A stretch of 64,000 nt of DNA from Peptoniphilus ovalis. GTDB taxonomy: Bacteria; Bacillota; Clostridia; Tissierellales; Peptoniphilaceae. A program made the translations under genes and the position numbers. The notes under the pieces were generated by a model. The model was not told the DNA's origin, searched no databases, and was given only the letters and a program-made list of their open reading frames with translations. The stretch is from the NCBI RefSeq assembly GCF_018919265.1, contig NZ_JAHLQO010000005.1:124001-188000 (forward strand). The letters run 5' to 3'. Below, piece by piece: positions 3,806 through 25,470 of the stretch; within the stretch, counting starts at the first letter, position 1, and each line of letters begins with the position of its first letter.

Positions 3806-4016
3806 TTGGGAAGGGGCGGCTAGGCCTTCAGAATTGGCCTCGCCCCTTCCCAAACTCATCCCCACGCACCTCAACTGCCTGGCAGGGGCCCGACCCGTTA
3901 ATACGCAAAAAGGTCTGAGACTAAATTTTCAAAACTCGCTTTGCTCAAACAAGTTGAAAATTTTTAACGTCTCCGACCTTTTTGCTTACTAATAGAGAAG
4001 TCGGTTAATTATTGGC
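3806..4016 (-). repeat. large structured intergenic element, copy 1
   Basis: Minus-strand copy of the element also found at 19364-19910 and 25180-25470. Read on the minus strand it has a 5' flank (CAATAATTAACCGACTT), a first stem closed by GCAAAAAGGTC and GACCTTTTTGC (3905-3985), a spacer with CGGGCCCCTGCCAGGC, and a second hairpin closed by TTGGGAAGGGGC and GCCCCTTCCCAA (3806-3853). It is the shortest copy, lacking the nested inner hairpins. Its higher GC stands out from the surrounding AT-rich DNA. No protein-coding support was seen. The remaining 4017-4176 is plain AT-rich sequence. Confidence 0.8.
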
Positions 4017-4176
4017 AAAATCTTTTTTGGATTTTAAAACTTCAAGAAATATAATGTGCTAAACAAGTTTATTATTTAAATAACTCAAATTATTTTGCAT
4101 CATTAATATATTTAAAAATTAAAACTATAACTTTAATAATTATACATAAATCAGTTAATTTGAAAAATTTATAATT

Positions 4177-4206
4177 AAAAAGTGCTGGCTTTCACCAACA
4201 CTTTTT
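4177..4206 (-). terminator. intrinsic terminator of hslO
   Basis: Read on the minus strand: AAAGTGTTGG, loop TGAAAG, CCAGCACTTTTTAAT. It lies 10 bases past the hslO stop and includes one U-G wobble. It is nearly identical to the hairpin at 3650-3685. Confidence 0.88.
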
Positions 4207-4215
4207 CAAAATTTT

Positions 4216-5133
4216 TTAAAAATTATCTTCCACATTATATTTCTTAAGATTAATCTCTTTTGCTTCTTTTAATATTTCTTGAAGATCCTCTTCATCAAAA
4301 TGATACTTCTCATCACAGAAATAACATTCTACATCTGCCTTCTTATCTTCTTCAAGCATTTCCTTGATTTCCTTAGGTCCAATTGAAACTATTGCATCTT
4401 TAACTTTTTCTCTTGAGCAGTCGCATTTATAAGTTATGTCTCTCTTTTCAAGTATTTTATAATTCATACCTTCCATTAGGATTTCAACTAATTTTTCTGC
4501 ACTGTGATATTCATCAATTACATGAGTTACTGATTTTATTTTGGCAAGGTTTTTCTCAAGCTTTTCAATTTCTTCTTCAGTTGCATCTGGCATAAGTTGA
4601 ATTATAAATCCACCTGCTGCCTTGATGCTTAAATCAGTATCAACTAATACTCCAAGACCAACTGCTGATGGAACTTGATCTGATTGTAAAAAGTACGCCG
4701 CTAGGTCATCTCCAATCTCTCCACTTACAAGTCCAACTGTACCAGTGTATGGCTTTTTCATTCCAATATCCATTACAAGAGTAAGGTTACCTTGTCCAAC
4801 AACTCCTGACACATCAATCTTCCCATCGCTTTCTCGTATTGGAAGATCGGCTGAAGGGTTAGTCACATATCCCTTTACATAGCCATCATTTTTACAAGTT
4901 GCCACAATTTTTCCAGCAGGGCCATTCCCATCAAGTGAAACTGTTATTGAATCCCTTTCATTTTTTTGCCAGGACCCCATAATTGCAGTTGCAGTTAAAA
5001 GTCTTCCAAGTGCTGCAGAAGTTGTCTTAGATAAATTGTGCAGCCTTCTAGCTTCTTCAACAACATCTGTTGTAATTGCTGCAGAAATTTTTATAGTTTC
5101 TGTCTCATCTATTCCTCTTAAAATATATCCCAT
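4216..5133 (-). CDS. hslO: 33 kDa redox-regulated chaperone Hsp33
   Basis: Cytoplasmic holdase of 305 residues, activated when oxidative stress oxidises its zinc-binding cysteines. The four ligands are visible as C237-x-C239 (CDC) and C270-x-x-C273 (CYFC), the normal Hsp33 spacing. The N-terminal substrate-binding domain begins MGYILRGIDETETIKISAAITT, as in the family. Length is typical. The start follows a GGTGAT ribosome site. It stands alone with its own terminator and fits the other oxidative-stress genes in the window (catalase, glutathione peroxidase). Confidence 0.96.
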   Translation of the reverse strand: MGYILRGIDETETIKISAAITTDVVEEARRLHNLSKTTSAALGRLLTATAIMGSWQKNERDSITVSLDGNGPAGKIVATCKNDGYVKGYVTNPSADLPIRESDGKIDVSGVVGQGNLTLVMDIGMKKPYTGTVGLVSGEIGDDLAAYFLQSDQVPSAVGLGVLVDTDLSIKAAGGFIIQLMPDATEEEIEKLEKNLAKIKSVTHVIDEYHSAEKLVEILMEGMNYKILEKRDITYKCDCSREKVKDAIVSIGPKEIKEMLEEDKKADVECYFCDEKYHFDEEDLQEILKEAKEINLKKYNVEDNF

Positions 5134-5291
5134 ATCATCACCATTTTTCTTTAAATATATTTATTCTTTAATGATAACTTTAGTTTATCCTCTTTATGAT
5201 ATATTTATTTAGTATTCTTGTCAATTAAGCTTTATTGTGCTAATGTTAAAGTAATAGATTGTGTTTTAGTAAATTAAAGGGGTTTAATGTT

Positions 5292-6038
5292 ATGAAGTTT
5301 GGAATAAGAAAACCTAGTTTAAAAAAATCTTTTAAAGCTAGAACAACAGGAAAAATGAAAAGAGCATTTAGAAGATCTTTTGATCCAACTTACGGAAAAA
5401 AAGGCGTGGGATTTATAAAAAATCCTAAAAAATCAATTTATAACAAAGTTTATCACAAAACTACTTTTGGAATTAATGATTTATTTAAAAACTCTTCAAA
5501 TCAAAAAAATTCATCTTATAGGAAGACCAAATATGCTTCAAATAAGTCAAGTACTTCTAAATTTAAAAATGATAATTTTATTTATAACTCCGATGGAAGT
5601 TATTTGATTTTTGATAAAACTCATATAAAAAATGGTTATGATTTAAATAAGGTTATTAGTTTAGAAAATATTAACAAAATTATTATCGAAGATTTTATAA
5701 TCTACATATATATAAATGGAGACCTATATTTTTATGGAAATTTAACAAAACTAAATCGTGATAAAGTTTATAAACTTTATAAGAGCGTTAATAAAGCCAA
5801 TAAAGTTCCGTATAAATCTTATTTTGAAGTTATAAAAAATCTTCCAAAAGGAAGCTCTTTAAAGAATTTAAAACTTTATAAGTTTGTTCTTTTACCTATT
5901 TCATTATTTTTATTTCTTATTTCAATACTATTAGATGATACTTTTTTTGGGTTCATTGGAATCTTATTTATATTTATTTCTATAGCGGGAATTAATATGA
6001 ACACTTCAAGCAAACAAGGAGGTAATTATGAAAAATAA
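5292..6038 (+). CDS. uncharacterised basic protein with C-terminal membrane hairpin
   Basis: I do not assign a function. The ATG at 5292 was chosen over an in-frame ATG at 5259 because AAAGGGG lies 9 bases upstream of it; this gives 248 residues. The first 65 residues are very Lys/Arg-rich and contain GKKGVGFIKNPKKS and YNKVYHKTTFGI, a pattern I associate only loosely with small phage-associated or hypothetical Firmicute proteins. A middle segment resembles a small beta-rich domain (IIIEDFIIYIYINGDLYFYG). Two hydrophobic helices at the C terminus, about 196-215 and 220-238, suggest membrane anchoring. It overlaps the next gene by 11 bases, so the two form an operon. Confidence 0.75.
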   Translation: MKFGIRKPSLKKSFKARTTGKMKRAFRRSFDPTYGKKGVGFIKNPKKSIYNKVYHKTTFGINDLFKNSSNQKNSSYRKTKYASNKSSTSKFKNDNFIYNSDGSYLIFDKTHIKNGYDLNKVISLENINKIIIEDFIIYIYINGDLYFYGNLTKLNRDKVYKLYKSVNKANKVPYKSYFEVIKNLPKGSSLKNLKLYKFVLLPISLFLFLISILLDDTFFGFIGILFIFISIAGINMNTSSKQGGNYEK

Positions 6039-6837
6039 TTTTAAAAAAGTTTTTGTAAGTTTAATTTTTCTAGCAATTTTAATACCAATTCATGCCTTTG
6101 CAAATGGTGAAATTAAAATTTGGATCAATGGAGATTATGTAAAATCAGATGTTGCACCGTTTATTGAAAATGACAGGACTCTTGTACCTGTAAGAGTTAT
6201 TTCAGAAAATTTAGGATACCAAGTTGATTGGAATGGTGAAACAAAAGAGGTAAATATTATTAGACCTGATAGTGAAAATCCTGAAGTTCTACATTTTTTG
6301 GGGATGACTATTGGTGATTCTAATATTTATACTTTTGATATGAAAGTTCTTGCAGAAAATGATATAGACACATATTTTCAAGTTTTGACTAATTCAGTTA
6401 AAACTCCAATTGATGCTGCTCCAAAAATTGTTAATGAAAGGACTTTCGTACCAATTAGAGTTATAGCTGAAAACTTTGGTCAAAAAGTTGATTGGGATGC
6501 TGAAAATAAAACTGTAATTATTGGCGATGGATATAATTTTAATGCATCCAAAACAGCTATTAACACTAATTTAAATAATGCTGGAGATTATCAGGTTACA
6601 AATAATGTCACACCTGTTACAACTAATCTTGTTTCAAATCCAAAGGGAACTAATAATTTAAACACATACGACATTCCTGCTACTGGTAGTTATGTTGGAA
6701 ATGCAAATAGCAAAAAGTTTCACAGATCAAATTGTAAATCTGCTTCAAAGACATCTCCTAAAAATAGAGTAAACTTTGGCAGTCGAAATGAAGCCGTAAA
6801 TGCAGGTTATGTACCATGTAAAATTTGTAATCCTTAA
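6028..6837 (+). CDS. secreted copper-amine-oxidase-type stalk domain protein with C-terminal Cys/His motif
   Basis: Exported protein of 269 residues. The signal peptide is MKNNFKKVFVSLIFLAILIPIHAFANG, written here as KKVFVSLIFLAIL followed by a cleavage region near AFANG. Two copper amine oxidase N-terminal-like repeats follow: DRTLVPVRVISENLGYQVDW at about 51-70 and ERTFVPIRVIAENFGQKVDW at about 138-157. This domain is common in clostridial cell-surface proteins and does not imply oxidase activity. The last 50 residues (FHRSNCKSASK ... AGYVPCKICNP) resemble the Ada-like metal-binding module attached to many secreted nucleases and hypothetical proteins. RBS is GGAGG. It is translationally coupled to the upstream gene. 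Confidence 0.85.
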   Translation: MKNNFKKVFVSLIFLAILIPIHAFANGEIKIWINGDYVKSDVAPFIENDRTLVPVRVISENLGYQVDWNGETKEVNIIRPDSENPEVLHFLGMTIGDSNIYTFDMKVLAENDIDTYFQVLTNSVKTPIDAAPKIVNERTFVPIRVIAENFGQKVDWDAENKTVIIGDGYNFNASKTAINTNLNNAGDYQVTNNVTPVTTNLVSNPKGTNNLNTYDIPATGSYVGNANSKKFHRSNCKSASKTSPKNRVNFGSRNEAVNAGYVPCKICNP

Positions 6838-6873
6838 ATATTGGTATTCTGTAATCCTTAAATATTGGTATTC
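6826..6873. repeat. 24-bp perfect tandem duplication spanning a stop codon
   Basis: TGTAATCCTTAAATATTGGTATTC occurs twice head to tail, described here as unit starts at 6826 and 6850. The first unit contains the stop codon of the preceding gene. It looks like a replication slippage event and does not alter the protein. Confidence 0.9.
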
Positions 6874-6897
6874 TGCTATCAATAAAATTTACACTAT

Positions 6898-6930
6898 AAA
6901 ATAAGACCTGATTACAGGTCTTATTTTCTT
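6898..6930. terminator. bidirectional terminator between convergent genes
   Basis: AAATAAGACCTG, loop ATTA, CAGGTCTTATTT, with T-rich sequence on each side. It serves the plus-strand stalk-protein gene and the minus-strand methyltransferase, whose stop codon lies within it. Confidence 0.88.
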
Positions 6931-7646
6931 GCAATAATAGTATATCTATTAGTTTCTTCACTTATTTCATTTTTTTCATAATCATCGTAAACTTCTATAT
7001 CCTTATACCCAATTTCTTCTAAAAATGAAAGTACATAATCGATACTGTAGGCTCTTTCTACATGTTCTTCGTAAAATCTTTCGTATAAATCTCTTTCTGT
7101 GTTTACAAAGAAATTAATTCCATAGGTGTTTAGCTTTTTTTCTTCATCGTATATATTTTCCCAAACATAAAATACTTCATCTACTTCATCAACTGTTACT
7201 GGCGAGATATTTTTAAATTTATATTCTGTGTTTAGGTCAAATATTAATATTCCATCTTCATTTAGATGTTCATAGGCTGATTTTAAAGCTGACTCAAATC
7301 CTACTTTTTCAATCACATAGTTGAGGCTATCTCCCACAGAAAATATTGCATCATAATTTGTTGGTGCTTTAAAATTTGTCATATCTTGTCGGAAAAGTTT
7401 TAATCTCTTATTTTTTATTTTATTTTCACAAACACTTAGCATGTCATAAGACAAATCAAAAGCATGCACTTCAAATTTATCCACTAAATGTTCTGTGAGC
7501 TCACCCGTACCACAAGCCATCTCTAAAATTATTTTAGGTTCTAAATTTTTATCATTTAGAACCTCTAGTATAAATTTATAAATTTTTTTGTAGTCGAGAT
7601 CATACATTAATTTGTCATAAATATATGCAAAATCTCCATACATCAT
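6921..7646 (-). CDS. class I SAM-dependent methyltransferase
   Basis: Predicted cytoplasmic methyltransferase of 241 residues. Motif I, the glycine-rich AdoMet loop, is ILEMACGTGELTEHL (about 40-54). The acidic ribose-binding motif follows in VHAFDLSYDML, and FSVGDSLNY marks motif III/IV. This pattern is typical of the YjiC/YqeM-like or Methyltransf_25 groups. The substrate cannot be read from sequence. Its start overlaps the sirtuin stop by 4 bases (ATGA), so the two are cotranscribed. Confidence 0.88.
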   Translation of the reverse strand: MMYGDFAYIYDKLMYDLDYKKIYKFILEVLNDKNLEPKIILEMACGTGELTEHLVDKFEVHAFDLSYDMLSVCENKIKNKRLKLFRQDMTNFKAPTNYDAIFSVGDSLNYVIEKVGFESALKSAYEHLNEDGILIFDLNTEYKFKNISPVTVDEVDEVFYVWENIYDEEKKLNTYGINFFVNTERDLYERFYEEHVERAYSIDYVLSFLEEIGYKDIEVYDDYEKNEISEETNRYTIIARK

Positions 7647-8380
7647 ATTCTTTTTTCTACCTCTTCAAGTATTTCTGTTAAAACTTTAGATGAATTTTCG
7701 TGGAATACTACATCTGCCCTGTTGTCAAATGGAGTCGGGTCATTATTTATTATTATTAAATGATCAACATAATTTGGTAGAAAGTTTACTGGTGAAACTG
7801 AAAGTGATGAGCCAACAACTATTAATGTATCTGTGTTATCGAGCTCTCTTGCTCCCCTTTCGAAATCATCTGGCATCATATCGCCAAACATTACTACATT
7901 TGGTCTAAGTGTGCCGCCACAATCGTCGCATTTAGGTGGAATTTCTCCAGCTTCTACCTTTTTCTTCATCACATCAAATTTAAATTCATGTCCACAGCTC
8001 ATACAGTGGATTCCTCTAGTTTCTCCGTGAACTTCGTAGATATTTTTAGAGCCAGCCTTTGCGTGTAAGTTATCAATGTTTTGAGTGATAATGCCCTGAA
8101 GTTTTCCAAGTTCTTCAAGTTTAGCAAGGGCAATATGACCTTTATTTGGTTTTTGGTCGTTTAAATCTTCTAAGATTACATATCCCTCTTTGTAAAATAT
8201 TTCAGGATGGTTTAAAAGTCTATCCTTTGAAAGTGCAAGAGTTGGATCCATCTTTGTGTAATATCCAGTGTTACTTCTAAAGTCTGGAATTCCCGAATCA
8301 GTTGATATCCCTGCTCCTGTAAGTGCAAACACCTTCTTAGAATTAACAATTAAATCTACGGCCTTTTGTAAATTGTCCAT
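7643..8380 (-). CDS. cobB: NAD-dependent protein deacylase (sirtuin)
   Basis: Removes acyl groups from lysines using NAD. The 245-residue protein shows the sirtuin NAD site GAGISTDSGIPDFRS (about 22-36), TQNIDNLH, the catalytic His in EVHGE, and a zinc ribbon CMSCGHEF ... CDDCGG. GSSLSVSPV closes the Rossmann part. The residues that in class III sirtuins favour succinyl groups (Tyr/Arg after the active-site loop) were not resolved, so acyl preference is open. It is followed by a methyltransferase with a 4-base overlap. Confidence 0.95.
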   Translation of the reverse strand: MDNLQKAVDLIVNSKKVFALTGAGISTDSGIPDFRSNTGYYTKMDPTLALSKDRLLNHPEIFYKEGYVILEDLNDQKPNKGHIALAKLEELGKLQGIITQNIDNLHAKAGSKNIYEVHGETRGIHCMSCGHEFKFDVMKKKVEAGEIPPKCDDCGGTLRPNVVMFGDMMPDDFERGARELDNTDTLIVVGSSLSVSPVNFLPNYVDHLIIINNDPTPFDNRADVVFHENSSKVLTEILEEVEKRI

Positions 8381-8392
8381 AAAATCCTCCTC

Positions 8393-9301
8393 TTAAAAAA
8401 CAATATAGTGATAAATAAAATATAGAATTACAAGTGCTATAATTGGCACAAAATTAAATAAATCAATGCCTTCCACATCTCTATATCTTATTTTTACTTC
8501 CTCTGTTATATTATTTTTCATACTGTTAAAAATCATTCTTATTAGAATAATTGAAACAATAGAAATTACAAATAAAATAATTATTATAAAAAGTTGTAGC
8601 GATCCAATCTCACGAGAAAGTCTTGTCTGCCACAAAAAGTCAAATACTCTTTGGTTTACATATCTTGCCGATAATACTGCAATCACATTGTTTATGAAAT
8701 GTGCAATAATTGCGGGATAAATTGATCCTGTAAGTTCTATTAATGTAGAAAACAAAAGTCCCAAGAAAAATGGTGCCACAAAATTTTGAATGTCAAAGTG
8801 AAAAAGTGCAAAGACAACTGCTGAACAAACTATGGAAAACTTAACTCCATAAACATTGTATGCATTTGTAAGAGTTGCTCTAAAGAAAACTTCTTCGCAA
8901 ATTGCAGGCACAAAACACATAAATATCAAATAATTTACAAGGGATACATTTTGAAGCATTACTTCCATGGGAAAGTTTTTATATTCGATAAAATTTCTAA
9001 GTAGTGACAAAAATATTCCATTTAGAAGAAGTATCACTGGATATGCAAGTATTGTAACGATTACTGTTTTTAAAACATTTATTGCCGGTGTCTTTTTAAT
9101 TTTTAAAATTTCTTTTATATTTCCCGTTGATGAAATAACAAGAGCCGGTATTAATACAATAAAAATTTCTGTAATAAAAGTACCCCAAAAGCTGTACTTC
9201 TCTTGAATATTAAATCCAATAGTAAGAAAAATTATTGCAAGAATTAATGTAAGTGTGTTGACACTCATTACATTTAAGTTTTTCTTTTTATAACTTCTCA
9301 T
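8393..9301 (-). CDS. CPBP family intramembrane metalloprotease
   Basis: Multi-pass membrane protein of 302 residues, about eight hydrophobic helices. It contains the three conserved CPBP (Abi/CAAX protease) motifs: EEVFFRATL, then FALFHFD, then HFINN, which supply the glutamate and histidine metal ligands inside the membrane. Family members process prenylated or bacteriocin-related substrates or act as membrane stabilisers; the substrate here is unknown. It follows hpt by one base, so it probably shares its transcript. Confidence 0.9.
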   Translation of the reverse strand: MRSYKKKNLNVMSVNTLTLILAIIFLTIGFNIQEKYSFWGTFITEIFIVLIPALVISSTGNIKEILKIKKTPAINVLKTVIVTILAYPVILLLNGIFLSLLRNFIEYKNFPMEVMLQNVSLVNYLIFMCFVPAICEEVFFRATLTNAYNVYGVKFSIVCSAVVFALFHFDIQNFVAPFFLGLLFSTLIELTGSIYPAIIAHFINNVIAVLSARYVNQRVFDFLWQTRLSREIGSLQLFIIIILFVISIVSIILIRMIFNSMKNNITEEVKIRYRDVEGIDLFNFVPIIALVILYFIYHYIVF

Positions 9302-9302
9302 C

Positions 9303-9821
9303 CTAGTCCTCTACATAATTATAAATATAAGGCACATTTCTGTAGTAGTCACCGTAATTTAAGCCATATCCAACTATAAATAAATCGTCAATTTCAAAAC
9401 CTACATAATCTGCTTCTATATCTGCTTTTCTTCTGCTAGGCTTGTCAAGTAAAACACAAGTCTTAATACTTTTTGGAGAATAAGTCTCGAGTTTATCAAC
9501 TACTGCTTTTAAAGTGTTTCCAGTATCAAGTATGTCGTCTACAACAAGTACATTTCTGTCTTTTATATTAGTTCTAAGCTCTGTCAGAAACTTAACATTT
9601 CCACTAGATCTCTCATCGTGACCATAGCTTGATGTTGTCAAAAAATCTATTTCAATTAATTTGTCTATCTCTCTAACTAAATCTGCAGCAAAAATAAAAC
9701 TTCCCCTCAAAAGAGAAATGATAACAAAATCATCTTCAAAGTCATTTTCTATTTTTTCTGCCAATATTTTAACTTTATTTTTAATCTCATCTTGAGAAAA
9801 TAATAATTCTTTTCTTTTCAT
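9303..9821 (-). CDS. hpt: hypoxanthine phosphoribosyltransferase
   Basis: Purine salvage enzyme joining hypoxanthine or guanine to PRPP. The PRPP-binding signature VLVVDDILDTGNTLKAV is complete (about 92-108). The early SLLRGSFIFAADLVREI segment and the late DFIVGYG-like FIVGYGLNYGDYYRNVPYI segment are as in bacterial Hpt. Length, 172 residues, is normal. The ATG is preceded by a GGAGGAAT site. First gene ahead of the CPBP protease. Confidence 0.95.
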   Translation of the reverse strand: MKRKELLFSQDEIKNKVKILAEKIENDFEDDFVIISLLRGSFIFAADLVREIDKLIEIDFLTTSSYGHDERSSGNVKFLTELRTNIKDRNVLVVDDILDTGNTLKAVVDKLETYSPKSIKTCVLLDKPSRRKADIEADYVGFEIDDLFIVGYGLNYGDYYRNVPYIYNYVED

Positions 9822-9929
9822 AATTTCAAGTATTCCTCCAATTCTATTATATCAAAAACTCTTTAAAATTCATCTTTTATTGATATTGGAAGATTTCTAA
9901 TATATAATTCAAATAAAGAAGGTGATTTT

Positions 9930-10442
9930 ATGAAAAACAGTTCTTTTGAACTTGCTCTAAATAAGCTATTAATACTTTATATAGTGAAAAATTTTCAGCA
10001 TAAGTTAGAAGAAAATGATTTAAGCTATTTTGTATTAAATATAGAATTATTTAATTACTTTTATTTCAAACAATATTTACAAGAACTTGAATCAGCCGGT
10101 CTGATATTATTTGATAAAGATAAAAAATACTATCTTTCTGAAGACGGCGAAAAAACTTTAGAAGTTTTATACAAAAAGATTCCAGAAGAAAATATTAATT
10201 TTCTAGACAAGGAAATGGAAAATTATATCCACGAATTAAATGTAAAAAATTCAGTAACTGCAAATATTTTAAAAGAAGATGATGGAATTTACAATCACTT
10301 TAAGATTAAAGATGGTGACATCAATGTATTAGACTTAAAAATAGAAGTTTCAGATGAAAATATGGCTAAGAAATTTTCTAGAAATTTTAAGAAAAATGCC
10401 GATAGAATTTATTCCGAAATTTTAAGGTTACTTTCTGAGTAA
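9930..10442 (+). CDS. DUF4364 family protein, winged-helix-like
   Basis: Cytoplasmic protein of 170 residues. The N terminus (LALNKLLILYIVKNF ... FNYFYFKQYLQELESAGLI) has the helix-turn-helix and wing layout of DUF4364 proteins of Clostridia, which are thought to be DNA-binding, though no target is known to me. The LSEDGEKTLEVL segment would form the wing and following helix. Two membrane-protein genes follow at 9 and 10 bases spacing, so a three-gene operon is likely. Confidence 0.75.
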   Translation: MKNSSFELALNKLLILYIVKNFQHKLEENDLSYFVLNIELFNYFYFKQYLQELESAGLILFDKDKKYYLSEDGEKTLEVLYKKIPEENINFLDKEMENYIHELNVKNSVTANILKEDDGIYNHFKIKDGDINVLDLKIEVSDENMAKKFSRNFKKNADRIYSEILRLLSE

Positions 10443-10451
10443 GGTGGTTTT

Positions 10452-10949
10452 TTGTATAATTTCATTTATATTTTTTTATTAATTATTTCAATTTTAATTT
10501 TATTTTTAGATTTATCTAGTATTAAAAAGAATTATATTTCCGATAGCATTGAATTTATTATAAGCAGCACAAACCTATTAGCTATTATATTTTTATGTTT
10601 TATAGGCAAAAATATTAGCCTAATATTTTTTGTTATCTTTAATTCTATTTTTTCATTAATCTATAAATCGAAGAAAAGTTTTAATATCATCCTATTAAAT
10701 TTAATTATTTTGATTTTTGTAATACCAATTATAAGTTTATATGGATCTACTTTCATAGAAAATGGAGTAAAGATTTACGCTTCTAATATTTATTTTGTAT
10801 TATTTGCTTTAATTTCAATTGTTTATTATATATTAAATACCTATACAGCAATTAAAATAGCAAAAGTTTCAAGAAATGAATTTTTAATTTTTATGATTCT
10901 TCAAACTTTTTTATATTTAGAATTTTTATTTATATTTTTTTACATCTAA
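10452..10949 (+). CDS. unknown small membrane protein, paralogue A
   Basis: Function not recognised. The protein has 165 residues and five or so hydrophobic helices joined by short Lys-rich loops. The start is TTG at 10452, preceded by AAGGTGG; no ATG offers a better site. It is a tandem paralogue of the next gene: both have a K-K-N loop after helix 1, a YKSKKSFNIILLNLI / YDKKKNFNIILLDLI segment, and a KIAKVSRNEFL / KFAKISRSQFI segment at the same places. Composition is very AT-rich even for this genome. Confidence 0.7.
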   Translation: MYNFIYIFLLIISILILFLDLSSIKKNYISDSIEFIISSTNLLAIIFLCFIGKNISLIFFVIFNSIFSLIYKSKKSFNIILLNLIILIFVIPIISLYGSTFIENGVKIYASNIYFVLFALISIVYYILNTYTAIKIAKVSRNEFLIFMILQTFLYLEFLFIFFYI

Positions 10950-10959
10950 GGGGAATTTT

Positions 10960-11454: not shown

Positions 11455-11455
11455 A

Positions 11456-11488
11456 AAAGAAGTTGCTATTTGTGCAACTTCTTATATT
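11456..11488. terminator. bidirectional terminator
   Basis: AAGAAGTTGC, loop, GCAACTTCTT with T-rich tails on both strands. It separates the plus-strand membrane pair from the minus-strand staygreen-like gene, whose stop lies inside it. Confidence 0.88.
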
Positions 11489-11951: not shown

Positions 11952-12475
11952 GCGTTAACAATCCTCTTTGAAAAAATAGAAACTGTGTACCTAGAAGCAA
12001 GTAAACCTATTAAATAAATCACAATTGTAATAACTACAGTTGGAATTATGCCAGCTTGCACAAATCTTGATTGTGGAACGAAAATATTAACTATAAAAAA
12101 TGATGTCCAAACTGAAAGTGAAGACCTAATTGGCACAGAGTAAATAATATTTCTAACTTCATTATAATTTCTAAAAATTAATAGAGTTATAATATCGGCA
12201 ATTATTCCACTCAGTACGCCTGCCAAGGCTCCAAACAAAGTCATCCTCATCATATAAATTCCGTAGCACAATGAAATCAGTGTGACTGTTCCTATTTTTC
12301 TAGTTTTTAAAATAGTAGCTGTATAAATAAAGGCAAAAACTGGTGCAGTTATTAAAACTCTTGAAGATGGTATGGGAAGAGTAAGCGATAAAGAATACAA
12401 GACCTTCCCTATTACAATCATCATAGCTAGAGATAGTCCCATAAGAACCCAATCTTTCACTCTAAATTTCTTCAT
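11948..12475 (-). CDS. ECF transporter S-component-like membrane protein
   Basis: 175 residues with five or six hydrophobic helices. The AGVLSGIIADIITLL segment near the middle is typical of substrate-binding (S) components of energy-coupling-factor importers, possibly the MptD group, and size fits. No ATPase or T-component gene is adjacent, as expected for group II ECF systems that share one energising module. It starts directly after the radical SAM stop and overlaps the staygreen-like gene by 4 bases. The cargo is unknown; the neighbours suggest a tetrapyrrole or its precursor. Confidence 0.7.
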   Translation of the reverse strand: MKKFRVKDWVLMGLSLAMMIVIGKVLYSLSLTLPIPSSRVLITAPVFAFIYTATILKTRKIGTVTLISLCYGIYMMRMTLFGALAGVLSGIIADIITLLIFRNYNEVRNIIYSVPIRSSLSVWTSFFIVNIFVPQSRFVQAGIIPTVVITIVIYLIGLLASRYTVSIFSKRIVNA

Positions 12476-13459: not shown

Positions 13460-13469
13460 TTTTACCTCC

Positions 13470-18825: not shown

Positions 18826-18864
18826 AATAATTTAATTAGAAAATTTAAAAATAATATTAGAAAT

Positions 18865-18893
18865 GGGTTGTTTTAACAAACAGCCCGTTTTTA
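18865..18893 (+). terminator. intrinsic terminator of pepA
   Basis: GGGTTGTTT, loop TAAC, AAACAGCCC followed by GTTTTTATTTT. Includes one G-U pair. Confidence 0.88.
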
Positions 18894-18901
18894 TTTTAAT
18901 A

Positions 18902-18940
18902 GGGACAGTCCCCTTTTAAACTTGGTCAGGGACAGTCCCT
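18902..18940. repeat. two GGGACAGTCCC palindromes (REP-like)
   Basis: GGGACAGTCCC at 18902-18912 and AGGGACAGTCCCT at 18928-18940, with TTAAACTTGGTC between. The same spacer word TTAAACTTGGT precedes the single copy at 19289-19301, so spacer and palindrome have moved together. Confidence 0.85.
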
Positions 18941-19005
18941 GAATTACTATTGACACCCACGTTTTTTTTGATAACATTTTCATATAATATAAGGAGGTTT
19001 TATTT

Positions 19006-19225
19006 ATGAATAATACTAGAGTTCCTGATTACCATTGTCATCCTGCTTGGGGCGATACTTGCCAAGACTAATATGAAATTTAATATTAAAATTGTAATTA
19101 TAGCTATTTTCATAGGAGCTATATTATCACTCATTATTAATGGAATATTTGAAGGAATAGTTGGTAAAGACATAAAGAGTTTTACATCCAATAAAGTAAA
19201 AACCTATATAACAAATACAAAATAA
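19006..19225 (+). pseudogene. short membrane ORF, apparently frameshifted
   Basis: AAGGAGG precedes an ATG at 19006 that opens only a 21-codon peptide (MNNTRVPDYHCHPAWGDTCQD, stop at 19069-19071). From 19010 the +1 frame is open to a stop at 19223-19225 and encodes a hydrophobic segment, FLITIVILLGAILAK, then MKFNIKIVIIAIFIGAILSL and a polar tail. The strong ribosome site joined to a hydrophobic downstream frame suggests one small two-helix membrane protein broken by a one-base change near 19021. Alternatives are a real 21-residue peptide, or a 50-residue protein from the ATG at 19073, which lacks a ribosome site. Confidence 0.45.
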
Positions 19226-19245
19226 AATTTATAAAAAAATGAAAA

Positions 19246-19278
19246 TGGGCTGTCCTAAAGGACAGCCCATTATTTTTT
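19246..19278 (+). terminator. strong intrinsic terminator
   Basis: TGGGCTGTCC, loop TAAA, GGACAGCCCA, then TTATTTTTT. It follows the small broken ORF. The stem core GGGCTGTCC/GGACAGCCC is shared with the hairpin at 48909-48932, so the hairpin itself may be a repeat that doubles as a terminator. Confidence 0.85.
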
Positions 19279-19288
19279 AAACTTGGTA

Positions 19289-19301
19289 AGGGACAGTCCC
19301 T
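19289..19301. repeat. single GGGACAGTCCC palindrome (REP-like)
   Basis: AGGGACAGTCCCT preceded by TTAAACTTGGTA, as in the 18902-18940 pair. Confidence 0.8.
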
Positions 19302-19363
19302 GAAATTTTTAAAATCTTATTAGAGTGCAACTACTTCTTGAAGTGTAAAAATCAAAATAATTT

Positions 19364-19910
19364 TTGACAATAATTAACCGACTTATCAAGTAGTAAGCAA
19401 AAAGGTCGAAGACGTTTCGCGACTCATGAAAAAAAGCTCCTTATTCAGTCACTTTTTTTCATTCGCATGCATAAGGTTATTCATCAACTCAGACTCTTAG
19501 CAGTCTTCGTTGTGAATATCGTTAATCTCGTGACTTGTCACTCGATTAACTACCATTAAAATTTTCAATTGTTTGAGCGAACGCAGTGAGTGAGTTTGCT
19601 TGACCTAACTCAATTTGTGAAACAAATTGTAAGTAGGTCAGCGGCAACCACTTGCCAACGAGAGGAGTGAAGCGAACTCGAGTTGGTGCAAGTGTCTGAC
19701 TAAGAAAATTTAGTCGGAGACCTTTTTGCGTATTAATGGGACGGGCCCCTACCAGGCCGTTTAGGTGTAAAAGGGATGCTCGAAGGGGAAAAGGAAGATT
19801 CGGATGAAGCCCTAGCCAAAATCTTTGATTTTGTTGCAGGTCTCATGCCACTATTTGTCCAAATCTTTGATTTGGGTACAAATATCGGCTACGTCCTAAT
19901 TCCCCTTCGA
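19364..19910 (+). repeat. large structured intergenic element, copy 2 (longest)
   Basis: Plus-strand copy. Order: flank CAATAATTAACCGACTT; stem I closed by GCAAAAAGGTC (19397-19407) and GACCTTTTTGC (19719-19729); spacer with CGGGCCCCTACCAGGC; stem II closed by TCGAAGGGGAA (19780-19790) and TTCCCCTTCGA (19900-19910). Nested inside stem I are hairpins CAATTTGT/ACAAATTG and CACTTGCCAACGAG/CTCGAGTTGGTGCAAGTG, and a module GGTTATTCATCAACTCA related to the array at 60131-60880. Inside stem II is the module CCCTAGCC ... GTTGCAGG. There is no open reading frame with a ribosome site. Remaining 19911-19983 is AT-rich. Confidence 0.82.
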
Positions 19911-19983
19911 AAATGAATATAGAGCTATAAGTTTTAAAATATTTAATCAAAATAATGAATTATAAAACATATGTATGTAATTA

Positions 19984-20016
19984 AAAAATCTGTTAGAGTT
20001 TAACCCCTAACAGATT
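19984..20016 (-). terminator. intrinsic terminator of hppA
   Basis: Read on the minus strand: AATCTGTTAG, loop, CTAACAGATTTTTTAATT. Seven bases past the hppA stop. Confidence 0.9.
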
Positions 20017-20023
20017 ATTTTAA

Positions 20024-22027
20024 TTATAGTAATATTCCACCATATGCTACGAATAATGGTGCGAATACAAGAGATACAACAGTTATAAGTTTTACTAAAA
20101 TATTAAGTGAAGGTCCTGATGTATCTTTAAATGGATCTCCTACAGTATCTCCAGTTACAGCAGCTTTATGAGCTTCTGAACCTTTACCACCGTGAGCTCC
20201 ACCTTCTATATATTTCTTAGCATTATCCCATGCACCACCGGCATTTGACATAAAGATTGCCATTAATACACCTGTGATTAGAGAGCCTGCTTGAAGTCCA
20301 CCTAGTGCTTCTGTTCCAAGAAGAAGTCCAACTAATACTGGAACAACTACTGCGATAAGTCCTGGTACAACCATTTCTTTAAGTGCAGCACCTGTAGAAA
20401 TATCAACACAAGTTGCGTATTCTGGAGTTGCTTTTCCTTCCATAATTCCTGGAATTTCTCTAAATTGTCTTCTTACTTCATCAATCATTTCTGAAGCTGC
20501 TTTACCTACAGCTGACATAGTCATTGCTGAGAAAGCAAATGGAAGCATACCACCAATAAATGTTGCTGCTATAACTTCTGGCTTAGAAACGTCGATTCCT
20601 TGAAGTCCTGTTGCATTGATATAAGATACGAATAATGCAAGAGCTGTAAGTGCTGCAGAACCAATTGCAAATCCCTTACCAATTGCTGCTGTTGTGTTAC
20701 CTACAGCATCAAGTGAGTCAGTTATATCACGAACATCTTCTGGAAGTTCACACATTTCTGCGATACCACCAGCATTATCTGCGATAGGTCCGTAAGCATC
20801 TACTGCAATTGTCATACCTGTTGTTGAAAGCATACCAACTGCTGCAAGTGCAATTCCGTAAAGTCCATAAATAGCTTCTGTAGCTCCGCCTGCTCCGATG
20901 TAAGCTGCAATTATTCCTGCTGCTATTACAACGATTGGCCAAACTGTTGACATCATACCAACGGAAAGTCCAGCGATAATATTTGTAGAAGCTCCTGTTT
21001 CAGATTCTGCTCCAATTCTCTTAACTGGTGCATAATCTTCTGATGTATAGTATTCTGTAAATTTAGAAATAATAAGTCCAACTACAATACCAATGATAAC
21101 TGGTGCAAATGGTGTAAATGAACCAAAAATGTAATTAGATAAAAGTGCTGAAGCAATCATTGTTACAATTGCTGATACATATTCTCCAGTGTTAAGAGCT
21201 TTTTGTGGATTTTTGTCTCCTTTTACAAAGAATGCTGCTACAATTGATGCTAAAATACCAACTGTTGCAACAAGAAGTCCAAAAGTAACTCCATTTGTTC
21301 CATAAGCTACAACTCCAAGAGTGATAACTGATAGAAGTGCTCCAACATAAGATTCGAATAAGTCAGCTCCCATTCCTGCAACGTCCCCAACATTGTCTCC
21401 AACGTTATCTGCAATAACTGCAGGGTTTCTTGGGTCATCTTCAGGAATTCCTGCTTCAACTTTACCTACAAGGTCAGCCCCAACGTCTGCTGCCTTAGTG
21501 TAGATTCCTCCACCAACTCTTGCAAAAAGTGCAATTGATGAAGCTCCTAATGAGAATCCTGTGATGATTTCTGTTTGACCATCTGTTAAGAAGTAAGCTA
21601 CTGATATACCAATGATGCCAAGACCTACTACACACATCCCCATTACTACACCACCTGAAAAAGCTACATCAAGTGCTTTTCCAAGTCCTGATTTCCAAGC
21701 TGCGTTTGCAGTTCTGACATTTGCCTTAGTGGCAACTCTCATTCCTACATAACCAGCTGCAACTGAGAATATTGCTCCTGCAACAAAACAAATTGCAGTT
21801 GGAACTGATTTTAATCCCACTGCTAAGATAATTGCAAGTACGATTACAAATACTACAAGAGCTCTGTATTCTCTAGTTAAAAATGCCATTGCTCCTTCGG
21901 AAATGTAAGAAGAAATTTCTTTCATTCTTTCATTACCTGGGTCTTGCTTAGATACAAAGCTTGCCTTATAAGCTGCGAATAATAAAGCTAAAACCCCAAC
22001 AATAGGAGCTAGATATAAAATATCCAT
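20024..22027 (-). CDS. hppA: membrane-bound ion-pumping pyrophosphatase
   Basis: 667 residues, about 16 membrane helices. It couples pyrophosphate hydrolysis to H+ or Na+ export. The pyrophosphate-binding motif [35 protein letters not shown], cited here by its parts [16 protein letters not shown] and DNVGDNVGD, is complete. The determinant [10 protein letters not shown] carries Ala where K+-independent enzymes have Lys, so this belongs to the K+-dependent subfamily; Na+ pumping is common there in anaerobes, but the ion is not proven. Directly downstream of secG. It recovers energy from biosynthetic pyrophosphate, useful in fermenters. Confidence 0.95.
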
Positions 22028-22058
22028 TGCCGTAAATCCTCCTTAAATTTTTTTGAAA

Positions 22059-22283
22059 TTAAATTGCTGCAAGTACAATAAGCGCAATTGCAAAAACAAT
22101 ACTAGTTGTAATAACAATTCTGTTTTGAATGTCTTTTTTACTTGAACCTTTATAATTACCCCAAGAGCTAGTTTCTTCACCTTGAAGAGTTCCTAGACCT
22201 GCTTGTTCAGATTCCATTTGTGCAACTATAGCTATTACGATAATGCTAGCAATTATAATTATAATAGATAATAAAGTTTGCAA
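22059..22283 (-). CDS. secG: preprotein translocase subunit SecG
   Basis: 74 residues: an N-terminal hydrophobic helix (LLSIIIIIASIIVIAIVAQ), a Gly-rich linker AGLGTLQGEETSSWGNYKG, a charged patch SSKKDIQNRI, and a second helix. This is the SecG plan, although the Gly linker is divergent from the usual SGA-x-GGG form. It would assist SecYE in protein export. It is placed 31 bases upstream of hppA on the same strand. Confidence 0.75.
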   Translation of the reverse strand: MQTLLSIIIIIASIIVIAIVAQMESEQAGLGTLQGEETSSWGNYKGSSKKDIQNRIVITTSIVFAIALIVLAAI

Positions 22284-22374
22284 ACTTAAACCTCCCTTAA
22301 ATTTCTATAACATATAGATTCTATCACAGTAAACCTCTAGATTCAACGAAATAATCTTAATTTATGGCAATTTT

Positions 22375-22962
22375 TTAACAAATCTCTTTAGAAATTTCTG
22401 CTTCTATTTCATCTTCTTTCTCTTGCATTGCAATAAGAGTTTTTGTAATTAGTTCATCTAGTTCCCAGCCAAGCATTTCTGCTCCATTTTTTATGACATC
22501 TCTTGAGCAACCTGCTGCAAATTTCTTGTCTTTAAACTTTTTCTTAACACTTTTTAAATTCATATCCTTTGTGCTTTTTGATGGTCTCATAAGAGATGTA
22601 GCATAGATAAGTCCTGTAAGCTCATCAGTTGCATAAAGCACCTTTTCCATAAATAACTCAGGCTCAACATCAGTACAAATTTCATATCCGTGAGAAACAA
22701 TGGAATGAATTAGCTCATCAGTTCCCCCATTTTCTCTAAGAATTTGTGGCGTATTGTCTAGATGAGTTTCTGGATATTTTTCAAAATCCACATCGTGTAG
22801 TAGTCCTACAATTTTCCAGTAGTCTTCATTTTCTGCATCGTATTCTTTTGCAAAATGACCCATGACATTTTCAAGTGTAACTGCATGTCTAATGTGAAAC
22901 TCATCCTTGTTGTATTCTTTTAAAAGACTCATCGCTTTTTCTCTTGTAAATCCTGATTGCAT
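22375..22962 (-). CDS. HD-domain hydrolase
   Basis: 195 residues. The HD metal site is visible as H in RHAVTLENVM, HD in GLLHDVDFEKYPE and H in IVSHGYE, with D in YATDELTGL later. This pattern matches the YqeK-unrelated HD family of putative phosphohydrolases often annotated as hydrolases or HAD-like by mistake. The C-terminal EKEDEIEAEISKEI is helical. Substrate unknown. Confidence 0.85.
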   Translation of the reverse strand: MQSGFTREKAMSLLKEYNKDEFHIRHAVTLENVMGHFAKEYDAENEDYWKIVGLLHDVDFEKYPETHLDNTPQILRENGGTDELIHSIVSHGYEICTDVEPELFMEKVLYATDELTGLIYATSLMRPSKSTKDMNLKSVKKKFKDKKFAAGCSRDVIKNGAEMLGWELDELITKTLIAMQEKEDEIEAEISKEIC

Positions 22963-23101
22963 ATTATCATCTCCAAACTATTTTAAAATATTTTAACACA
23001 TTTGGACTTTGTATCACAAATTTAGAAATAATCATACTATGGTTTCACTTTTTGTCGGCTGTGAGATATAATAAAAGTGACGAATATAAGAGGAGGTTTA
23101 T

Positions 23102-24121
23102 ATGAAAAATAATGTTGGCATAATGGGTTTTGGTAGAATTGGAAGAGATGCTCTAAGAATATGGGCTCTTCGCGAAAATAAAGAATTCAACATAACTCAT
23201 GTTGCTGTTAGAAATGTAGAAAAAACTTTAAAGGAAAGAACTCATCTATTTAAATTCGACTCAATTTATAGAACTTATCCTGGCGAAATTGAATTTACAG
23301 AAGATGGAATGGTTGTAGATGGCCATAAAATTACCTTTGTTGAATCAAAGACTCCAGAAGAAATGAACTGGAGAGAACTTGGCGTTGATGTAGTTATTGA
23401 CTCATCAGGTGCTTTTAAAGACGAAGAACAAGCTAAGGGTCACATCAAGGCTGGAGCAAAAAAAGTTGTCCTAACTTCTCCAGGAAAGGGCGACATTCTT
23501 ACAGTAGTTATGGGTGTTAATGATGATAAATACGACGCAGAAAAACACGACATCATTTCAAATGCAAGTTGTACTACAAACTGTCTTGCTCCTATTACAA
23601 AAGTTGTCCTTGATAACTTTGGAATTAAAAAGGGACTTATGTCTACAGTTCATGCATATACTAATGACCAAAACATTCACGATGCTGTCCACAAAAAGGA
23701 TATGAGAAGAGCAAGAATGGGTGCTGAAAATATAATTCCAACTTCAACTGGAGCTGCAAAGGCAGTTGGAAAAGTTATTCCAGAAGTTGATGGAATCTTA
23801 ACAGGATTTGCTCTTAGAGTTCCAGTTCCAACAGGATCACTTGTTGATGTAACTTTCGAACTTGAAAAAGAAGCTACAAAAGAAGAAATCAATGCTGCAA
23901 TTAAAAAAGCATCAGAAAATGAATTAAAGGGAATTCTAGAATATTCAGAAGATGAACTTGTATCTTCAGATATTATTGGAAACAAACACTCGTCAATATT
24001 TGATTCTCTTCTTACAACAGTTAACGGAAATATGGTTAAACTAATCTCTTGGTATGACAACGAATGGGGTTATACTGAAAGAGTTATAGACTTAACAGAA
24101 AAAATTGTAAAATCACTTTAA
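23102..24121 (+). CDS. gap: glyceraldehyde-3-phosphate dehydrogenase, type I
   Basis: 339-residue glycolytic enzyme converting glyceraldehyde-3-phosphate, phosphate and NAD to 1,3-bisphosphoglycerate. N-terminal Rossmann GFGRIGRDALR, the catalytic Cys in SNASCTTNCLAP, and VHAYTNDQ and WYDNEWGYTERV near the end are all intact. RBS AGAGGAGG. It stands alone with its own terminator rather than beside pgk/tpi. Confidence 0.96.
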   Translation: MKNNVGIMGFGRIGRDALRIWALRENKEFNITHVAVRNVEKTLKERTHLFKFDSIYRTYPGEIEFTEDGMVVDGHKITFVESKTPEEMNWRELGVDVVIDSSGAFKDEEQAKGHIKAGAKKVVLTSPGKGDILTVVMGVNDDKYDAEKHDIISNASCTTNCLAPITKVVLDNFGIKKGLMSTVHAYTNDQNIHDAVHKKDMRRARMGAENIIPTSTGAAKAVGKVIPEVDGILTGFALRVPVPTGSLVDVTFELEKEATKEEINAAIKKASENELKGILEYSEDELVSSDIIGNKHSSIFDSLLTTVNGNMVKLISWYDNEWGYTERVIDLTEKIVKSL

Positions 24122-24125
24122 TCAT

Positions 24126-24149
24126 AAGCTGCCTAGTGCAGCTTTTTTA
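24126..24149 (+). terminator. intrinsic terminator of gap
   Basis: AAGCTGC, loop CTAGT, GCAGCTT, then TTTTT, four bases after the stop. Confidence 0.92.
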
Positions 24150-24219
24150 TTTTGTTAAATTATAATAATTGGGATATATATTATAGTAGAAACGAAATGA
24201 AAAAAAGAAAGGAAGTATT

Positions 24220-25080
24220 ATGAATAAAGATTATTTTAAATTAACAGGCGAGAAAATAAATATCGAAGATTTAAGCAGAGAAATTGTGAGTGATTCTAAA
24301 GATGAAGAAATTAAAAAAGAATTATATGATGAACTTGTCCCTAAACTAAGAGAACTCCATGCGAAATTATTTGCAGAAGCAAAGTACGGAATCTTAGTTG
24401 TGCTTCAAGCAATAGATGCCGCAGGAAAAGATGAAATTATTAAATATATTTTTTCAAACCTAACACCACAAGGACTAAAAAATACTTCCTTTGGTAAGCC
24501 AACGGAAGAAGAAGAGAGCCACGATTATTTGTGGAGAATAAATAAGGGACTTCCTAAACGTGGAGAAATTGCGATACTAAATCGTTCTTATTACGAAGAC
24601 ATTATCTCTCCAAAAATTTATGACACACTTGATAGTCTTCCAGATGAAATAAAAAATGATCCAGAACTTTGGAACAAGAGATACAAGCAATTAAATAATT
24701 TTGAAGAGTATTTAGATGAAAATGGATTTAAAGTTGTTAAATTTTATTTCCACGTTTCTAAAGATGAACAAAGAAAAAGACTTCTTGAAAGAATTGAAGA
24801 CAGTACAAAAAATCACGAATTTTCATTTTCTGATTTAGAAGATAGAGATAATTGGGATAAATATCAAAAAGCTTTTGAAGAAATGCTTAACAATACATCA
24901 ACTGAAATTGCTCCATGGTATGTGCTTCCAGCGGATAACCCTTGGTATTCAAGAAAAGTTGCAACACTTGCACTAATTGATGTGATTAAGAAGATTAATC
25001 CTAAGTTTCCTGAGTTTTCTGCCGAGGATAAAGAAAAAGCAGAAAAAATTGCCGAGCAACTAAAAAATAAGGAGATTTAA
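24220..25080 (+). CDS. ppk2: polyphosphate kinase 2 family protein
   Basis: 286 residues. PPK2 enzymes phosphorylate nucleotides with polyphosphate. The P-loop is AIDAAGKDE (about 64-72), Walker B is ILNRSYYEDI, and the lid contains RKRLLERIEDSTKNHEFSFSDLEDR, shown here by its ends RKRLLERIED and FSDLEDR. PADNPWYSRK is a conserved PPK2 motif. As a single-domain enzyme it may phosphorylate AMP or ADP; the class (I to III) was not resolved. RBS GAAAGGAAG. No exopolyphosphatase or ppk1 is nearby. Confidence 0.92.
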   Translation: MNKDYFKLTGEKINIEDLSREIVSDSKDEEIKKELYDELVPKLRELHAKLFAEAKYGILVVLQAIDAAGKDEIIKYIFSNLTPQGLKNTSFGKPTEEEESHDYLWRINKGLPKRGEIAILNRSYYEDIISPKIYDTLDSLPDEIKNDPELWNKRYKQLNNFEEYLDENGFKVVKFYFHVSKDEQRKRLLERIEDSTKNHEFSFSDLEDRDNWDKYQKAFEEMLNNTSTEIAPWYVLPADNPWYSRKVATLALIDVIKKINPKFPEFSAEDKEKAEKIAEQLKNKEI

Positions 25081-25179
25081 TTTTTTAAAAAAATTAAGAT
25101 AAAGATTTTGTTTTAATATTTTTTTAATTTTAAAACATAGTTAAAAATAAACTTAATATTTATAGTAGGGTATGTAACT

Positions 25180-25470
25180 GTGCCTAATAAGCAAAAAAAT
25201 TGGTCATGCGTTAAAAATTTTCAACTGTTTGAGCGAGCGTAGCGAAGCGAGTTTGCTTGACCTAACTCAATTTGTGCAACAAATTGTAAGTAGGTCAGCG
25301 GCAACCACTTGCCAACGAGAGAAACGAAGTGAACTCGAGTTGTTGCAAGTGTCTGACTAAGAAAATTTAGCATGGCCGATTTTTTTGGACATTCAGCAGC
25401 GTTTGGGTGTTAAGGGGTGGCTTGGAAGGGAAAAGGACGATCGCAACGTCCTAATTCCCCTCCAAAGTAA
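25180..25470 (+). repeat. large structured intergenic element, copy 3
   Basis: Plus-strand copy. Stem I is closed by AAAAAAATTGGTCATG (from 25193) and CATGGCCGATTTTTTT (25371-25386). This differs in sequence from copies 1 and 2 yet still pairs, through G-U and changed pairs. The inner hairpins CTCAATTTGT/ACAAATTG and CACTTGCCAACGAG/CTCGAGTTGTTGCAAGTG are shared with copy 2. Stem II, CTTGGAAGGG/CCCCTCCAAAG, is short here with loop ATCGCAA. The spacer has lost the CGGGCCCC word. No coding support. 25081-25179 and 25471-25522 are AT-rich with nothing evident. Confidence 0.82.

Follow-up and report, generated by a model that had tools for sequence, protein, structure and literature searches.

Modular hairpin repeats of Peptoniphilus and its relatives appear to form an undescribed family of small elements, probably mobile and recognised in folded, single-stranded form

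Introduction

In the sections of PMC2817692, PMC3116915 and PMC3733652 that describe them, REPs, BIMEs and REPINs are dispersed, intergenic, non-coding palindromes that have GT pairs in their stems. The element described here shares these features. A REPIN spreads as an inverted doublet; in the P. harei group the matches listed include inverted pairs placed head to head, and P. ovalis has mainly single copies. As portrayed in the same sections, however, a REP or REPIN is a palindrome of 20–40 bp, REP copies number more than a hundred, an unpaired GTAG or CGTC tag marks one end, and the RAYT gene lies between two inverted copies. Our element has three hairpins with a core of ∼150–180 nt and is present in tens of copies; by eye we saw no end tag common to them, and only in genome G153 is a RAYT gene flanked on either side by strong copies, the two sharing the same orientation. 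Moreover, unlike REPs, the element has a fixed asymmetric bulge and a C-GNA-G apex. In the relevant part of PMC3733652, Di Nocera and colleagues argued for an RNA role of many REPs on the grounds of where these lie and how often GT pairs occur in them.

The CIR elements of Caulobacter and Brucella, as outlined in PMC2229807, resemble the element in having two long inverted-repeat arms with a linker, in being intergenic and in keeping their structure across species; they carry a GANTC motif. They belong to a different phylum; our element has a further hairpin in the middle and a stem I core that extends across its order. The same outline presents the MITE-like NEMIS/Correia, ERIC/IRU and RU repeats (PMC2229807) as non-coding repeats of 100–200 bp with transcripts foldable into long stem-loops, again like the element, but no fixed terminal inverted repeat or TA duplication was seen on ours, and the ends of its rod forms vary. 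Literature searches on Peptoniphilus, Anaerococcus, Finegoldia and Tissierellales gave no recognised description of these repeats.

Architecture of the element

The window, a stretch of 64,000 nucleotides of the Peptoniphilus ovalis genome, contains the following features:

3806..4036, minus strand: type A element, copy 1 (5' flank 3986-4036, stem I 3905-3985, spacer/middle hairpin 3854-3904, stem II 3806-3853)
19346..19910, plus strand: type A element, copy 2, enlarged (stem I 19397-19729, spacer 19730-19779, stem II 19780-19910)
19589..19713, plus strand: stem I inner module common to copies 2 and 3, 94% identical to 25246-25370 in copy 3
25180..25470, plus strand: type B element, copy 3 (stem I 25192-25387, spacer/middle hairpin 25388-25421, stem II 25422-25465)
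∼48695..48822, minus strand: stem II alone, enclosing an inner module of this kind as well

These coordinates agree with the preliminary description, which had placed three copies here in the order stem I, spacer, stem II. Neither stem I nor a middle hairpin was seen at the site of the solo stem II. Copy 1 has near-identical counterparts at C1:343464-343685 (91% identical) and C5:36831-37047 (89% identical), and copy 3 is flanked by two convergent genes, ppk2 (24220-25080, plus strand) and an ABC-transporter ATPase gene (25523-26275, minus strand). All three copies fold better than every dinucleotide shuffle: copy 1 as RNA (231 nt, z −7.0, 200 shuffles), copy 2 as RNA (549 nt, z −8.0, 100 shuffles) and copy 3 as DNA (286 nt, z −6.1, 200 shuffles).

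Across the 18 own-genome copies examined, the element is non-coding and ∼150–230 nt long (core 153–183 nt in ten short natural copies). It consists of stem I with its fixed GUUAA/A bulge, then the middle hairpin, then stem II. The core of stem I has a 5-to-1 bulge, mostly GUUAA/A, and an apex that is usually C-GNA-G; the spacer is among the parts that differ between types A and B. Shuffles gave a C-GNA-G or C-GNNA-G apex in 2.2 cases on average and 8 at most, whereas 31 of the 38 distinct stem I apices have one (loops GAA 23, GGA 2, GTA 2, GTTA 2, GATA 1, GAGA 1). The GTTA and GATA loops fall outside the RNA GNRA rule. The pertinent part of PMC4686876 states C-GNA-G/C-GNNA-G as the rule that extraordinarily stable DNA mini-hairpins follow.

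The long inner hairpins reported earlier for two of the copies are present, and are other repeats nested in the loops of stem I and stem II. In copy 2, stem I encloses about 300 nt of other repeats and stem II holds an inverted module resembling an 86-nt insert; stem I of copy 3 contains the ∼125-nt module shared with copy 2. When filled and empty loops were compared, the nested repeats proved to be inserted without target duplication. A 142–143-nt insert is common to three type B copies at the same spot, with two copies 3 kb apart.

Pairing and wobbles

The preliminary description had read pairing kept despite sequence change as a sign of selection on structure. Three copies were thin evidence, and a larger set from the same genome now bears it out: in 11 copies collected with BLAST and aligned with MAFFT, not model-fitted (in three rows an insert was removed from stem II, and three others end within stem II), 98.2% of 443 cells are paired and 12 pairs have changed on both sides (shuffled mean 6.4). 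None of 500 shuffles, which for this and the following alignment leave the relatedness between copies in, attained any of the five measures. A model-aligned set of 53 copies, drawn from four genera, has 96.4% of its cells paired, compared with at most 60.2% in slid controls; a covariation count, run in place of the R-scape test that had been proposed, gave both-side changes at 39 of 45 pairs, and the observed values were again attained by none of 500 shuffles. Selection on structure is thus supported by both alignments.

Stem I of the 11 BLAST-found copies has 16 G.U wobbles and no A.C, indicating that the constraint acts on one folded strand. Among 47 distinct rows from the 62 best model matches the numbers are 55 and 2, and counting a wobble a single time for each genome group, type and position gives 25 and 2. 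Random decay of the copies, which the preliminary description had set against its own proposal, is therefore not what stem I displays, as its non-Watson-Crick cells are G.U far more often than A.C. Stem II lacks the asymmetry (G.U 5, A.C 3, arms located directly and one match skipped); a first count of 8 and 7 had been distorted by copies with long inserts, hence the recount. It is a nearly perfect palindrome, with Watson-Crick pairs in 337 of 350 cells from 32 distinct copies; in copy 3 it contains a single A.C mismatch. In the rods described below we counted 12 G.U and five A.C wobbles, all five A.C in rows of genomes G196 and G048 (G197 is a duplicate of G048). The rod rows of these three are visibly shifted in register by one, and A.C is absent from the 14 other rod rows.

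Compensatory change together with strand-specific wobbles in paralogous repeats suggests that shape, not sequence, is recognised. The copies offer a natural alignment that may separate sequence-fixed contacts (bulge, apex) from parts that need pairing only.

Distribution

The covariance-model search that had been recommended gave, among the matches listed, a match in 46 of 130 family genomes at E ≤ 0.01. Matches also occur in 21 genomes of the order outside the family and seven of the class outside the order. In other families the stem I core also forms the top of ∼200-nt rod hairpins, which by eye are paired up to their outer ends even though the sequence of these ends varies. P. ovalis has mainly single copies. 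For four of its copies, no element match among those listed lay within 25 kb of a listed orthologue of the examined genes in the genus, although a weak match could have escaped the listing. Some copies do stand at orthologous places in two species, for instance P. vaginalis and P. phoceensis, and such copies may have a cellular function. No site that lacked the whole element and was cleanly closed came to light.

Because copies cluster in P. genitalis and P. harei, integron attC arrays were considered. This reading was dropped because the examined genes between copies are ordinary and the box motifs of attC sites differ from those of the element. A common unfamiliar gene beside the clusters was not found either, as the two uncharacterised proteins compared are unrelated. 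Phage or plasmid cargo was rejected: there was no exact core match in viral contigs, none of copy 3 in phages and none of the one rod searched in plasmids.

Search for a partner enzyme

Comparison of Y1 and RAYT genes with element presence yielded no dedicated transposase. Y1 matches occur in 35 of 46 element-bearing and in 39 of 84 other family genomes (Fisher p 0.0015), a weak association; among the matches listed, 11 of the 46 element-bearing genomes have no Y1 match. The 11 loci carrying the G153 RAYT or a homologue, inspected with flanks of about 1.5 kb, have strong element matches in G153 only, weak ones at L156 and a chance-level one at L149.

Preferred reading and alternatives

With somewhat less than even confidence, we read the element as a family of mobile repeats, non-coding and non-autonomous, that function as one folded strand. 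It would be a new variant of non-autonomous hairpin repeats that probably moves in the form of folded single-stranded DNA. This DNA strand would be recognised by shape, by an enzyme acting in trans and related to the HUH/Y1 enzymes of IS200/IS605 and REP systems, with the sequence-conserved bulge and apex as its contact points. The outer stem would need pairing only and would therefore drift fast by compensatory change. Lineage-specific hairpins are seen added around the conserved hairpin core. Less probable still is a broader version with a Clostridia-wide hairpin parasite or domesticated hairpin, whose single-stranded DNA core (GUUAA/A bulge and hyperstable GNA apex) is shape-read by a putative enzyme and whose lineages acquired outer hairpins and rods via nested loop insertion. 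A large natural instance would be gained for the GNA-loop rule, which to our knowledge comes only from test-tube work and aptamer design, should the strand be DNA. The copies also provide a search target for the missing enzyme.

Several results weigh against mobile single-stranded DNA: the cognate enzyme was not found among the genes compared, stem II has no wobble asymmetry and some copies keep orthologous places. In addition, the orientation of IS200/IS605 elements shows a replication-strand bias, whereas the 18 own copies run eight with and eight against the local GC skew, with two undecided, and a strand bias was accordingly rejected.

The main rival, which we rate as somewhat less probable, is a structured RNA, transcribed from upstream genes or an own promoter and acting as a 3' UTR element, antisense or trans-acting RNA, with spread being secondary. 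One-sided stem I wobbles are what an RNA would show, the REP precedent cited above took GT pairing and location as signs of an RNA role, and by eye the internal loops are conserved in the element and in the rods. Moreover, convergent genes flank 13 of the 18 own-genome copies, and no copy has divergent neighbours. The context in relatives is mixed, however: 34 copies with both flanks called comprise eight convergent, 18 tandem and eight divergent (four further copies lack flanks), and 28 rods comprise seven, 16 and five, although five of six rods examined in G430 are convergent. A general preference for convergent genes thus holds in P. ovalis and fails in its relatives. Also speaking against RNA, two of the 18 own copies are antisense to both neighbours, inspection of the 5' flanks by eye showed no conserved promoter and no common −35/−10 pair, and most apices obey the DNA rule. 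A riboswitch or other known RNA family was discarded for want of an Rfam match: at the gathering score, Rfam 15 has none on the element in the window and none on the rods of 19 loci, which gave only riboswitches and tRNA elsewhere, and a permissive scan of six loci returned four matches with E 0.18–0.72, all below gathering. The preliminary description had proposed either a non-coding RNA or a mobile DNA; lineage-specific positions and DNA-type apical loops tip us toward mobile DNA.

Could the copies instead be copied bidirectional intrinsic terminators between convergent genes, with pairing selected since termination needs it? The EFAR repeats of Enterococcus faecalis, modular hairpins like the element, have been proposed to end transcription in such places. 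The proportion of convergent gaps in P. ovalis (13 of 18 with the element versus 10 of 87 other gaps drawn from the stretches surrounding element copies, Fisher p 4e-7) agrees with this, as do the A-tract and T-tract at the base of stem I in copies of Peptoniphilus, G026, G032 and G152. We nevertheless regard it as improbable. The G153 copies lack the T-tract, relatives lack the convergent preference, and neither the middle hairpin and stem II nor the fixed bulge and the apex are explained. Replacement of other terminators was rejected as well: 6 of 13 convergent gaps with the element and 3 of 14 without it have no other terminator on either strand, a non-significant difference from a scan that cannot score stem I itself, with one of the 14 holding the solo stem II of the window. 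Within the preferred mobile-DNA reading, stem I may additionally end transcripts, because many copies have both tracts at its base.

Mutation without selection, in which replication template switching at hairpins copies one arm onto the other and keeps pairing without function, would suit the almost perfect, unbiased palindrome of stem II and rods paired even at variable outer ends. It predicts equal numbers of G.U and A.C leftovers, contrary to the counts in stem I, and does not explain a bulge and apex constant across families, so that we find it very improbable.

That the copies are REP/REPIN elements proper, moved by the RAYTs of these genomes, deserves next to no credence: G153 has its RAYT gene between two copies and P. 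ovalis has two Y1 genes, which we take to be RAYTs, but beside these two lie other modules and GGACAGTCC palindromes rather than the element, G010 has two element matches among the matches listed and no Y1 match, and size, tag and flanking arrangement differ as set out in the Introduction. As judged by eye, the 5' flank beside stem I contains GTAG only in copy 2 of the window; it mostly reads GTAAGC, GATAAGC or GTGAGC in type A and AAGC or AATAAGC in type B.

Copies and anatomy of the element

The element is a real, structured and dispersed repeat. The preliminary description had reported three copies in the window, each with stem I, a spacer and stem II in fixed order, and both location and order were confirmed:

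3806-4036, minus strand, copy 1, type A
19346-19910, plus strand, copy 2, type A
25180-25470, plus strand, copy 3, type B

Across the whole genome (2.1 Mb) a type A query matched 25 times and a type B query 21 times, with overlapping and partial matches counted in; our working set was the 18 copies carrying stem I (14 type B, 4 type A). Judged by eye, the element opens at its 5' side with a short weak hairpin, followed by stem I, a middle hairpin of shifting register and stem II; the last is a G-rich palindrome that contains a small internal loop as well as an inner hairpin. Also by eye, stem I of type B comprises 18 outer pairs (starting with CAAAA in most copies), an asymmetric bulge (3' side A; 5' side mostly GTTAA, else GTAAA, GTGAA or others), 10 inner pairs and an apex in which GAGCGAAGCGAG or a variant thereof is usually contained. 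GC-rich (62%) partial elements at locus L108, e.g. 2667-2750 and 11983-12066, contain the middle hairpin and stem II only, and some form head-to-head pairs with type A copies.

Pairing is retained and stem I is constrained as one strand

Eleven copies found by BLAST were aligned with MAFFT (A2; three rows spliced after an insert was cut out, three cut off in stem II). In A2, 98.2% of 443 cells were paired, compared to at most 58.5% in slid controls. Both-side changes occurred in 12 pairs (6.4 in shuffled alignments) and 33 cells (10.2 shuffled), and 0 of 500 shuffles, which leave relatedness in, matched the observed values on any measure. In A4, which holds 53 model-aligned copies from four genera (Peptoniphilus g1, g14, g20 and g60) and leans to structure in its alignment, 96.4% of cells were paired and 39 of 45 pairs had both-side changes; the covariation score was 0.540 versus 0.169 in shuffles that leave relatedness in and at most 0.123 in slid controls. 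The outer part of stem I seems to require pairing alone, as its sequences at three loci (L006, L010, L014) are quite different yet largely compensated; the inner hairpins there are similar.

Since a plus-strand G.U pair corresponds to a minus-strand A.C mismatch, the ratio of the two reports selection on a single strand. Stem I of the 11 BLAST-found copies contained 16 G.U, no A.C and 5 other mismatches (7 G.U versus 0 A.C as position/pair events), a count that matters because match selection by a model favours G.U. Among 47 distinct rows of the best 62 model matches there were 712 Watson-Crick, 55 G.U, 2 A.C, 50 other and 27 gapped cells, and in A4, with each combination of genome group, subtype and position counted a single time, 25 G.U versus 2 A.C (p 6e-6). 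Stem I is thus constrained as one strand. Stem II was nearly all Watson-Crick (337/350 cells), with 5 G.U versus 3 A.C (32 distinct copies; one match skipped).

The core reaches beyond the family

With covariance model R1 (E <= 0.01) the element was found in 46/130 family genomes and 13/39 genera, many matches outside Peptoniphilus being weak-scoring. Model R2 detected it in 73/249 order genomes (E <= 1e-6; 52 in the family, 21 outside) and in 16/391 class genomes (E <= 1e-7; 7 outside the order); per-genome copy numbers in these two surveys are lower bounds, limited by how many candidates were scored. Outside the family, most matches among those listed span model positions ~6-89, i.e. stem I only, and stem I caps one long rod (183-227 nt, 56-88 pairs; 22 places, flanks included), in which further conserved internal loops were seen by eye. 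Stem I therefore appears to be the order-wide core, with stem II and the middle hairpin apparently added in the Peptoniphilaceae. However, one class genome from another family (G466) has full-length but weaker matches. In G430 (C1:336831-483722, L278-L281) at least seven giant rod hairpins lie within 150 kb, five of six examined between convergent genes.

Positions of the compared copies are lineage-specific

We compared matches of orthologous genes with element matches among those listed for four own copies, and found recurrence at orthologous places for 0/4. No element lay within 200 kb of close ppk2 orthologues in four genomes (copy 3), nor near the gene downstream of C1:303190 in five; for C1:306366 (downstream gene in 13 genomes) the nearest was 28 kb off. 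The two neighbours of copy 1 are not adjacent in other genomes, and no element was found within 40 kb of either (all among the matches listed). The positions of these copies are lineage-specific. Among relatives, one copy is common to P. vaginalis and P. phoceensis and missing from P. genitalis, and in P. harei that gap holds a copy of type A; another is common to P. vaginalis and P. genitalis, its core nearly unchanged and its flanks more diverged (by eye). Fast turnover with local retention suits a mobile element; the retained core at shared places is also compatible with a function. A 12 kb P. harei contig (L110, G012:C9:1-12000) is apparently an inverted self-duplication, in which rapZ, genes for S41 peptidases and two element pairs recur; it could have arisen in assembly or be a genuine palindrome.

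Placement was scored against genes that a simple script predicted as ORFs of 80 aa or more. In the own genome 13/18 copies lie between convergent and 0/18 between divergent genes (23/105 and 29/105 among all gaps of at least 100 bp in the 15 stretches). This preference cannot define the function, because it is absent in relatives (8 convergent, 18 tandem and 8 divergent among 34 copies with both flanks called; 4 more lack flanks) and mixed in 28 rods (7, 16 and 5). In the P. harei group (L158-L162), repeated ACTTCATAAGGAACTACAACTT-like units, which could be protein-binding sites, stand ~200 nt upstream of stem I, after a terminator-like hairpin.

Apex loops favour DNA over RNA

In the first 80 rows of alignment A3, 31 of 38 distinct apices contained C-GNA-G or C-GNNA-G with at least two closing pairs, whereas shuffled apices averaged 2.2 such cases and never exceeded 8; of the remaining seven, three carry AAA and one is not a genuine stem I. 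An RNA with the same letters as a DNA GNA mini-hairpin is much less stable. Such apices share the loop class of the extraordinarily stable DNA mini-hairpins, which according to PMC4686876 combine a GNA or GNNA loop with two or more G-C pairs, GCGAAGC having a Tm of 78 C. The closing pair of the apices varies (G-C, A-T, T-A, G.T), and those with A-T or G.T match this class less strictly. The loops favour DNA over RNA, although they are not proof. We infer that the functional form would be single-stranded DNA, recognised by its shape by an HUH-type (Y1) enzyme; the main rival reading is a structured RNA.

Y1 transposase genes occur in 74/130 family genomes. One REP-associated Y1 gene (RAYT), in G153, lies between two element copies of the same orientation, whereas the RAYT rule, as stated in PMC2817692, has flanking REPs inverted. 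In an unsystematic look at gene content no other gene was seen to accompany the element, and a cognate enzyme was not found. Two own-genome Y1 genes, which we read as RAYT-like, have palindromes of the GGACAGTCC type on their flanks, along with other modules:

G000:C2:93880-94206 (L076), Y1 gene
G000:C5:243625-243957 (L077), Y1 gene

Repeats nested in stem II

Six comparisons of empty and filled stem II gave two clean cases, one agreeing to within a base (L018 vs L013) and three blurred by substitutions. An 86-nt repeat was inserted in the apical loop with a one-base overlap (L015 vs L011) and a 143-nt repeat in the internal loop with no overlap (L016 vs L006), both without target duplication. 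The 143-nt insert, common to L006, L010 and L014, ends in CACTACCATT and so carries GTAG on the other strand; a similar end was seen by eye downstream of an own-genome Y1 gene. We take the inserts for REP-like repeats. A 1.2 kb intergenic array between ispE and mnmA (window 59720-60920) consists of GGGACAGTCCC palindromes, for which the L076 and L077 genes are a possible source, together with repeated modules: a 202-nt one in two copies (93%) and a 56-nt unit in four. Parts of these modules recur inside stem II loops elsewhere.
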